Below are positions 22,698-24,966 of a stretch of 64,000 nt of DNA, in pieces; the stretch's first letter is position 1; each line of letters begins with the position of its first letter. The notes under the pieces were generated by a model. The model ran no database searches. It was given only the letters and a program-made list of their open reading frames with translations, and had not been told where the DNA came from. Where the stretch lies: contig UBPA01000003.1 of the NCBI GenBank assembly GCA_900467185.1, positions 558,001 through 622,000 of the forward strand, in the 5' to 3' direction. A program made the position numbers and the translations under genes. The DNA comes from Hyphomicrobiales bacterium. GTDB taxonomy: Bacteria > Pseudomonadota > Alphaproteobacteria > Rhizobiales > Rhizobiaceae.

Positions 22698-23897
22698 TTA
22701 AGCCGTGGCGCGCTGTTTGACCGCCGTCAGCGTCTCGCTGGCGCGCTCGATGCGGGCAAGGCCCTCGCGGGCTTCCTCAGCGGTCGTGATCAGCGGCGGC
22801 AGCAGGCGGATGACGTTTTCGCCGGCGGGAACGGCCAGCATCTTTTCCGACCGGATCGCCTTCAGCAAATCCGCCGAGGGAACCGCTGCCTTGATGCCGA
22901 GCATGAGGCCTTCGCCGCGGATCTCCTCGATCACATCGGGGAAACGATCGGCAAGCGAGGCCAAGCCCTGGCGGAAGACGAGCGCAACGTCGCGGACATG
23001 CTCCAGGAAGCCCTCGCCCAGAACCACGTCGAGCACGGCATTGCCGACGGCCATGGCCAGCGGGTTACCGCCATAGGTGGAGCCGTGCGTGCCGGCGACC
23101 ATGCCGGAGGCGGCCTCTTCCGTCGCGAGGCAAGCGCCGAGCGGGAAGCCCCCGCCGATGCCCTTCGCGGCCGCCAGGATGTCCGGCGAAATGCCCGACC
23201 ATTCATAGGCGAAGAGCTTGCCAGTCCGGCCGACGCCGCACTGGACTTCGTCGAAGATCAGCATCAGGCCGTGTTCGTCGCAGAGGTCGCGCAGGGCCTG
23301 CAGGAAGGCCTTGGGCGCCGGGCGGATGCCGCCCTCGCCCTGGATCGGCTCGATCAGGATCGCAGCCGTCTCCTCCGTGATCGCCGCCTTGACGGCATCG
23401 AGATCGCCGAAGGGAACCTGGACGAAGCCCGGCGCCTTCGGGCCGAAGCCCTCGAGATATTTCGCCTGCCCGCCGGCTGCGATAGTCGCAAGCGTGCGGC
23501 CGTGGAAAGCGCCTTCGAAGGTGATGACGTGAAAGCGCTCCGGCCGGCCCTTGGCGAACTGGTAGCGGCGCGCGGTCTTGATCGCGCATTCCAGCGCTTC
23601 CGCGCCGGAGTTGGTGAAGAAGACCTTGTCGGCGAAGGTGTTGTCGGTCAGGCGCTTGGCAAGCTTCTCCTGGCCGGGGATCTCGTAGAGGTTCGACAGA
23701 TGCCAGACCTTTTCAGCCTGATCCTTCAGCGCCGCCACCAGATGCGGATGAGCGTGACCGAGCGAATTGACGGCGACACCGGCGGCAAAATCGAGATAGC
23801 GCGTGCCATCTTCCGCCACCAGCCAGACACCCTCGCCGCGCTCGAAGCGCAGCGGCGCGCGCATGTACGTTTCGTAAAGCGGGGTTGCCTCGGCCAT
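22698..23897 (-). CDS. argD: Acetylornithine aminotransferase
   Basis: A 399-residue class III PLP aminotransferase. It converts N-acetylglutamate semialdehyde to N-acetylornithine with glutamate, and may also serve in lysine synthesis. The PLP-aspartate is in [12 protein letters not shown] and the Schiff-base lysine in [14 protein letters not shown] (about residue 250). The N-terminal [18 protein letters not shown] is typical. GAGGAG-like bases precede the ATG. It is the first gene of the argD-argF unit. Confidence 0.95.
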
Positions 23898-24010
23898 CGT
23901 GCCAATCTCCTCGTCCTGTCCGCGCGGGCTGCGGGAAGGTTCGATCTGTTTTGCAGAGACCGGCAGTGCCGGCCCGAAATTAAAAATACCGCCCTGACGG
24001 CGGCGAGCGC

Positions 24011-24039
24011 ACTATCGGTATTTCAGGTGCCGCTGTCAA
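24011..24039 (-). promoter_or_regulatory. Probable argD-argF promoter
   Basis: On the minus strand a perfect TTGACA (24034-24039) and GATAGT (24011-24016) are 17 bases apart. The predicted leader of about 105 bases contains a small stem, CCGCC/GGCGG, followed by TATTTTT, and a second stem GCCGGC/GCCGGT. An 8-base repeat AAATACCG/CGGTATTT (23984-23991/24016-24023) overlaps the -10, a possible operator. Confidence 0.65.
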
Positions 24040-24154
24040 CAAAAGTCCCGGAATTACAGCCTTGTCGCGCGTTTTTCGAGCGCGATGCTTTCTGGAGAAA
24101 AGGCCTTGCAAATATATCACGCGGTGACAGCAAGTTGGGGAAAACCCAAAAATC

Positions 24155-24301
24155 GATTCGGGTCGATTCCCCGGACTCTTGTCAGGGAGTCACCCCATCT
24201 CTAGGTTAGCAAATAATTGCTAGACGCATGCGGCGGACCTAGTCACCAAAAGAGTCAAGGCGTTGCAGTCTCGGAGTCATTCGGGGCGCGGTGAGGGATT
24301 C
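24155..24301. promoter_or_regulatory. Cluster of seven GANTC methylation sites upstream of gcrA
   Basis: GANTC occurs at 24155, 24165, 24174, 24187, 24252, 24274 and 24297, seven times in 147 bases where about 0.6 would be expected by chance. In alphaproteobacteria GANTC is methylated by CcrM, and GcrA activates promoters carrying the methylated site. One site (24187-24191) lies inside the spacer of the probable gcrA promoter. The rest of the 437-base argD-gcrA gap holds the argD promoter and no visible gene. Confidence 0.8.
24179..24207 (+). promoter_or_regulatory. Probable gcrA promoter with embedded GANTC
   Basis: TTGTCA (24179-24184) and TAGGTT (24202-24207) are separated by 17 bases, with GAGTC at 24187-24191 within the spacer. 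The leader to the ATG at 24335 is about 120 bases. Other promoters in the cluster are possible. Confidence 0.5.
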
Positions 24302-24334
24302 GTCCTTCATGAACGGCCTGGAACGGAGACGACC

Positions 24335-24907
24335 ATGAATTGGACTGACGAGCGGGTTGAGAGACTGAAGAAGCTCTGGGCCGAGGGGTTGAGCGCGAGC
24401 CAGATCGCAGCACAGCTCGGCGGCGTCAGCCGTAACGCCGTTATCGGCAAGGTTCATCGCCTGTCGCTCCCGGGTCGTGCCAAGGCCGGTGGTGCCGCCC
24501 CGAGCGCGAACCGCCCGAAGCGTCCCGTCGTCGCCGCACGCCCGGCAGCCCCGGAAGCCGTCGTCGCCAACGCCGCCCCGCGCGCAGCACCGCTGCGCCC
24601 CATGGCACGCCCGGTCAGCACGATGAACGTGATCGAGGACTCCGAAAGCGCCTTCGCACCGGAAACCGCACTGACGGTGACCGGCAGCGGAGCGAGCGGC
24701 GCCACCGGCAGCAATGTCGTCGTGCCGATGTCGCGCAAGCTCGTTCTGACGCAGCTCACAGACCGCACCTGCAAATGGCCGATCGGCGACCCGATGAAGG
24801 ACGAGTTTCACTTCTGCGGCAACGATTCGCCCGACAGCTCGCCCTACTGCACCTTCCACGCCAAGCTGGCCTACCAGCCCTCGGCCGAGCGTCGCCGCGC
24901 GCGATAG
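24335..24907 (+). CDS. gcrA: Cell-cycle regulator GcrA
   Basis: ATG 24335, with GGAGA 7-8 bases upstream, gives 190 residues. The N-terminal helix-turn-helix is the GcrA hallmark: MNWTDERVERLKKLW, then SASQIAAQLGGVSRNAVIGK (residues 20-40). A disordered Ala/Pro-rich linker follows. The C-terminal sigma-70-binding domain has CKWPIGDP, FCGND and YCTFHAKLAYQP. GcrA is an essential or near-essential alphaproteobacterial co-activator that works with CcrM-methylated GANTC sites to control division and polarity genes. Its own upstream region is dense in such sites. Confidence 0.96.
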   Translation: MNWTDERVERLKKLWAEGLSASQIAAQLGGVSRNAVIGKVHRLSLPGRAKAGGAAPSANRPKRPVVAARPAAPEAVVANAAPRAAPLRPMARPVSTMNVIEDSESAFAPETALTVTGSGASGATGSNVVVPMSRKLVLTQLTDRTCKWPIGDPMKDEFHFCGNDSPDSSPYCTFHAKLAYQPSAERRRAR

Positions 24908-24930
24908 GCGCTCCAGAGATCCACGACGTG

Positions 24931-24966
24931 AAAGGCCTTCTTCGGAGCACGAAGAAGGCCTTTTTT
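24931..24966 (+). terminator. Rho-independent terminator after gcrA
   Basis: A perfect 14-base stem, AAAGGCCTTCTTCG (24931-24944) with its complement (24950-24963), has a GAGCA loop and a run of six T residues. Confidence 0.92.

Follow-up and report, generated by a model that had tools for sequence, protein, structure and literature searches.

GcrA and CcrM pace the cell cycle in many alphaproteobacteria, and the locus described here raises the question of how gcrA is itself controlled. In the stretch of DNA analysed (64 kb, hereafter the window) the gene is preceded by seven GANTC sites, the target of CcrM, within a span of 147 bp, all of them exactly where the original prediction had placed them (Table 1). 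Across the window (1-64000) GANTC is about six-fold under-represented, with 60 sites found against the 353 +/- 15 expected from 100 dinucleotide shuffles, and this avoidance makes the cluster more remarkable than the "twelve times random" first claimed for it. That figure holds against the naive rate of 4/1024. A further 320,769 bases of the genome were sampled, 6.4% of it and not at random: 12 stretches came from one contig, and eight other contigs contributed their starts or their full length. Together with the window (384,769 bases in all) they give a density of 1.13 GANTC per kb, which the cluster exceeds about 42-fold. With this sampled density as background, the Poisson probability of at least seven GANTC in a given 147 bp is 5.9e-10, and the best 147-bp stretch outside the cluster in the 384,769 bases holds four. 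A gentler control, in which the intergenic region itself (23898-24334) was shuffled, gave 2.2 +/- 1.4 GANTC and reached at least seven in 10 of 2000 shuffles, so local composition accounts for part of the cluster. These 10 shuffles are what can be said for chance clustering in a composition-biased intergenic region, an explanation that is scarcely credible for the cluster as a whole and is refuted for five of the seven sites by their positional conservation (see below); the sites at 24252 and 24274 could be chance. The observation of a cluster is confirmed and is stronger than originally claimed.

Table 1. Features of the gcrA upstream region, with positions numbered from the first letter of the window.
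Feature	Position	Strand	Basis or conservation
Aminotransferase gene, divergent from gcrA	22698-23897		PF00202
AAGTTGGGGAAAAC box, core TTGGGGAAAA at 24135-24144; presumed activator operator	24132-24145	+	Column conservation, distance to -35
GANTC site 1	24155-24159		Intact in 72/85 aligned sequences, shifts of at most 2 nt allowed
GANTC site 2	24165-24169		Intact in 54/85; absent in Mesorhizobium- and Phyllobacterium-like sequences
GANTC site 3 (p), immediately upstream of the -35 box	24174-24178		Intact in 80/85 (alignment)
-35 hexamer TTGTCA	24179-24184	+	Strongly conserved columns; 17-nt spacer to -10; fits the S. meliloti start site
GANTC site 4 (q), in the spacer, 2 nt after the -35 box	24187-24191		Intact in 83/85 (alignment)
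-10 hexamer TAGGTT	24202-24207	+	Moderately conserved columns; position relative to -35
Transcription start, by homology	24213-24216	+	S. meliloti start site carried through the alignment
Conserved 5' UTR block GCATGCGGCGGACCTAG	24226-24242	+	Column conservation; equivalent of the S. meliloti EcpR1 small-RNA target
GANTC site 5, seen only in this genus	24252-24256		Intact in 5/85 (the window and four genus loci); also in L084 and L085
GANTC site 6, observed in the window alone	24274-24278		Intact in 1/85; absent in the other six genus loci
GANTC site 7, inferred 5' UTR, 38 bp before the ATG	24297-24301		GGATTC; intact in 83/85, N = T in all 83
gcrA	24335-24907	+	PF07750, E 1.1e-57

When the sites are placed on the promoter, a regular layout becomes apparent. 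The four upstream sites are spaced 10, 9 and 13 bp apart, and the last two, p and q, flank the -35 box in the arrangement GACTC-TTGTCA-NN-GAGTC. With 24213 taken as +1, the top-strand adenines of the seven sites fall at -57, -47, -38, -25, +41, +63 and +86, and GANTC is present in the -10/-35 region of a start site placed by homology to S. meliloti, where transcription begins at -122 from the AUG (PMC4414408). The original prediction had put one site within the spacer of a likely promoter; this agrees with the GAGTC at 24187 in the TTGTCA/TAGGTT spacer, a hexamer pair that rests on homology and was not listed by a simple promoter consensus scan, which on the gcrA strand listed a weak promoter-like GTGACA/AAAAAT (24124-24153). 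An RNA hairpin formed by the p/q dyad was dropped as a reading, since the inferred start leaves both sites outside the transcript. The leader resembles that of S. meliloti, in which the start at about -122 is followed by a GC-rich 5' UTR block with a site for EcpR1, the pairing lying 13 nt after the start (PMC4414408), and site 7 perhaps acts at the RNA level. A search for RNA families returned three sub-threshold matches, all downstream of gcrA and none in the leader. A likely intrinsic terminator, an inverted repeat followed by a T run, was seen by eye just after gcrA (24930-24966) and was not among the features that the scan listed. The divergent aminotransferase gene can be called argD from the S. 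meliloti arrangement, and in that species a CtrA motif overlies the gcrA start (PMC3616915); a CtrA site of this type was not found over the start here at a threshold of at least 6/8 for TTAA-N7-TTAA.

The near comparison comprised 80 named gcrA loci. GANTC averages 4.9 (median 5) over the 300 bp upstream of gcrA in these loci, whereas the remainder of each locus carries 1.04 per kb on average. The gcrA upstream region is the densest 150-bp window in 74 of the 80, and a single locus, L038, has no GANTC in the 300 bp. The alignment of 85 rows is without L084 and L085; counts anchored on the -35 box cover 86 sequences with these two included, and L051, which was assigned no -35, has p and q intact by eye. 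Site p is intact in 81 of the 86 anchored sequences, and L072, which keeps q as GATTC, looks mis-assigned in that count. Five of the seven keep their positions across the alignment and can be counted as old, whereas those at 24252 and 24274 are local and therefore young. Near relatives show almost no variation in the N of q, nor in those of p and of the site 38 bp before the ATG, and for the latter two this hints at a constraint beyond methylation. Six of the seven genus genomes contain the pattern GACTCTTGTCA a single time and G004 contains it twice, and the reversed control matched once in each of two genomes. As a separate observation, the gcrA upstream region of Martelella mediterranea (L054) has lost p and q, and a short AACC...GGTT inverted repeat frames its -35 box.

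Further away, the order set consists of 30 loci, namely the best 29 of 118 matching genomes plus L141; it leans to good matches and includes three loci of the window's own family (L099, L100 and L102). A -35 box was assigned in 27 of the 30, with none in L111, L113 and L121, and the assignments in L122 and L125 look mistaken, as by eye these loci read TTGCGCCG-GAGTC and GACTC-TTGCCGCT-GAGTC, respectively. GANTC flanks the -35 box in other families too, p being intact in 16 and q in 21 of the 27, and the N of the spacer site is free: it is G in 11 loci, T in six, C in three and A in one, while GA-TC is kept. Because all four bases occur across families in this way, the methylation target itself seems to be selected; given the near-fixed N in the near set, this argument rests on the between-family comparison. 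The same variation bears on a reading in which GANTC arises as a by-product of the core promoter and of a GACTC-N8-GAGTC dyad that another transcription factor uses as operator, with methylation incidental. Sites p and q do form a perfect inverted repeat around the -35 box, with N nearly fixed among near relatives, but a q with G, T, C or A disturbs the dyad and spares the methylation target, sites 1, 2 and 7 lie outside it, and in the Pseudochrobactrum group the -35, the -10 region and the upstream box are kept with GANTC mostly gone. We therefore regard an operator of this kind as decidedly improbable.

The Pseudochrobactrum group (the genus of L038, Pseudochrobactrum asaccharolyticum) provides a natural control for site loss. 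Five of its seven genomes have no GANTC in the 300 bp and the other two keep q alone; the q position with its preceding base reads GGAGTC, GGCGTC, AGCGTC, GGTGTC or GGAGTT, which implies at least three different single-base changes behind the loss of q. The group retains TTGGGGAAAACC and the -35 and -10 region, and the GANTC sites are thus separable from the core promoter. Since six of the seven genomes have a CcrM candidate, the group can do without the control. The box is likewise kept, with p and q missing, in all three loci examined from family f41. Loss of CcrM is not supported as the cause of site loss, as RAMA matches were found in 35 of 36 genomes, including the three of f41, and in all five others, including that of L038; the lone genome without a match (G248) is a 2.6-Mb record from the Pseudochrobactrum group. 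The window's own genome has a CcrM whose RAMA domain scores over the cut-off (E 7.6e-19), in an ORF containing DPPY and FGSGTTG, which we take to be CcrM methyltransferase-type motifs. The literature searched gave no account of site loss in the Pseudochrobactrum group despite mostly retained CcrM.

Outside the order, the class set held the best 29 loci besides our own, from 72 of 115 genomes with a match; it leans to good matches, L141 belongs to the same order, and L139 and L145 are incomplete loci. These 29 loci average 1.24 GANTC per 320 bp upstream of gcrA against a background of 1.37 per kb, so that a mild excess exists outside Hyphomicrobiales as well. The 13-bp GANTC pair occurs in three of the 29, one of which is the same-order L141, and the TGGGGAAA box in none. 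On the present sample the design is a Hyphomicrobiales feature. The conservation that the original prediction proposed to look for in Rhizobiales was found, and the cluster is mostly absent from the loci examined beyond the order. In the literature searched, we found no printed account of a layout common to Hyphomicrobiales families.

RNA polymerase contacts the -35 box, the spacer and the upstream alpha-CTD zone of a promoter. The CcrM sites here would cover this landing region, two lying in the alpha-CTD zone, one abutting the -35 box and one inside the spacer, and we consider it probable that the gcrA promoter is a sigma-70 promoter built as a methylation-repressed switch. In G1 cells, full methylation would place N6-methyl groups that weaken recruitment of the polymerase, keeping gcrA low; passage of the replication fork would leave the sites hemi-methylated and open the promoter, giving a burst of GcrA in S phase, until CcrM re-methylated the sites and closed the promoter again. 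We infer that this promoter behaves like its A. tumefaciens orthologue, with the pair flanking the -35 box as the carrier of the methylation effect and hemi-methylation as the trigger. Methyl marks placed on either side of the -35 box would let a promoter sense a passing fork without a dedicated protein reader.

The core of this finding, methylation control of the gcrA promoter, is already published for a related genus. In A. tumefaciens there are six GANTC in the 250 bp upstream of gcrA, methylation lowers the activity of a promoter reporter, in A. tumefaciens as well as in E. coli cells with active CcrM, and over-expression of CcrM lowers gcrA mRNA; in the model drawn from this, hemi-methylation after fork passage activates gcrA and then, through GcrA, repC and ori2 (PMC11514494). 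The promoter here resembles the A. tumefaciens gcrA promoter PG in that the same gene carries over-represented GANTC (seven in 180 bp here) and that CcrM and GANTC-bearing RepABC modules are encoded in the same genome; it differs in two additional sites peculiar to this genus or genome, and in that repression by methylation, measured there, is a prediction here. The parts of that account covered here mention neither a wider conservation of the cluster, nor the -35-flanking layout, nor the TTGGGGAAAA box, and report no single mutated site (PMC11514494). The conserved layout and the box are what remains worth following. No other work on methylation of the gcrA promoter in rhizobia was found in the literature searched.

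The original prediction had gcrA under its own methylation-sensitive control, with GcrA activating its methylated promoter. The A. tumefaciens reporter and the conserved sites support the methylation control; self-activation by GcrA is unlikely given that methylation represses, also in E. coli with CcrM, and the sign of the effect is most likely the opposite of that proposed, whereas timing by fork passage is plausible and is also the model of the A. tumefaciens paper (PMC11514494). A broader form of autoregulation would have GcrA bind its own methylated promoter and either activate or repress it, the cluster serving as a GcrA platform. GcrA does prefer methylated GANTC, as do orthologues from other Alphaproteobacteria (PMC3667746), GcrA ChIP-seq peaks in B. 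abortus are 4.4- and 4.7-fold enriched in GANTC (PMC6813329), and an oriented protein contact could explain why N hardly varies at several sites. We nonetheless think this unlikely, because methylation still represses the A. tumefaciens promoter in E. coli, where alphaproteobacterial regulators are lacking (PMC11514494), and because the literature passages covered contain no report of GcrA bound at its own promoter. In the control list, the GcrA profile had no match in E. coli.

The switch that we favour has partial parallels in Caulobacter. The ctrA P1 promoter is described as needing a hemi-methylated GANTC, so that the fork must pass first, but in that account it has one upstream site rather than four, and it is activated by GcrA and serves another gene (PMC8116508). 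Promoters of the mipZ, podJ and ftsZ type also carry GANTC; CcrM reads these sites, and so does GcrA at mipZ and podJ. In the accounts covered here they lose activity without the sites or peak when fully methylated, whereas in A. tumefaciens methylation makes the gcrA promoter weaker.

A narrower reading, after the A. tumefaciens model, makes the cluster a timer for ori2 that is specific to bacteria possessing RepABC secondary replicons. The window's own genome has three RepC genes, and each module (L201, L202 and L203) carries four or five GANTC ahead of repA and two more in the interval from repB to repC, where repA and repB are named by position, a layout resembling that in A. tumefaciens (PMC11514494). 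These three modules favour the ori2 timer, but the p and q pair is also present in four single-contig genomes without a RepC match (G050, G090, G029 and G060), which argues that the promoter design is not tied to ori2; a fifth single-contig genome with the pair, G054, does have a RepC match. We find the timer improbable, marginally more so than the dyad operator. Because the layout also occurs where no RepC match was found, the switch can be uncoupled from the ori2 model; the literature searched gave no account of this occurrence.

Chromosomal position bears on when such a switch would fire. We took hemE as a stand-in for the chromosomal origin, and the distance from hemE to gcrA is 0.53 Mb in G005, 0.64 Mb in G004, about 0.58 Mb in the genome of L005 and about 1.11 Mb in that of L078, with contig C1 taken as the named chromosome record for the last two; in the window's own draft genome hemE and gcrA are split between two contigs. 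For A. tumefaciens the distance between gcrA and ori1 is about 0.43 Mb (PMC11514494). Rhizobiales gcrA genes are reported to lie mostly midway between origin and terminus (PMC8116508), and a very early burst of GcrA is therefore not favoured.

The TTGGGGAAAA box upstream of the sites points to a further regulator of gcrA. Nine of the ten columns of its core are invariant in the alignment, while the remaining one, the first, has T in 81 of 85 sequences, a near-invariance for which the literature searched offered no account. Its distance to the -35 box is 34-35 nt in 84 of the 86 near sequences and 24 nt in L038. In the order set TGGGGAAA is present in 19 of 29 loci, and among the 20 loci with a box before the assigned -35 the distance is 34-36 nt in ten, 23-25 nt in nine (the 25 nt of L122 resting on its mis-assigned -35) and 13 nt in one. 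The two main distance classes differ by about one helical turn, as would be expected for an activator site, and the box, two or three turns upstream of the -35, is presumably an operator for an activator. The 14-base AAGTTGGGGAAAAC form has a single match in the window's own genome at one mismatch or fewer, against two for the reversed control pattern, so there is no sign of a regulon with the exact box. The DnaA box consensus is TTATCCACA, and DnaA is unlikely to be the factor, given the two mismatches of TTTTCCCCA to that consensus. Neither TTATCCACA nor TTTTCCACA occurs on either strand in the 300 bp upstream of gcrA in any of the 30 order loci. NtrX acts on the S. meliloti gcrA promoter through a CAA-N2-5-TTG motif (PMC9223101), which the CAAGTTG at the box does not quite match.

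A wider reading takes in the box, the conserved layout and its losses. Tentatively, and at somewhat less than even confidence, we suggest that the promoter is an ancestral, RepABC-independent sensor of fork passage in Hyphomicrobiales, in which CcrM marks framing the -35 box would gate the polymerase and a dedicated activator at TTGGGGAAAA, phased by helical turns to the -35, would drive transcription; A. tumefaciens would later have wired it to ori2, and the Pseudochrobactrum group would have lost the gate and kept the box.

Extra GcrA-like genes, possibly mobile, occur in two genomes of the same genus (L088, L089 and L091, on G001:C37 and G003:C4), with 47-48% identity over the N-terminal part; two of these copies share one contig in G001.
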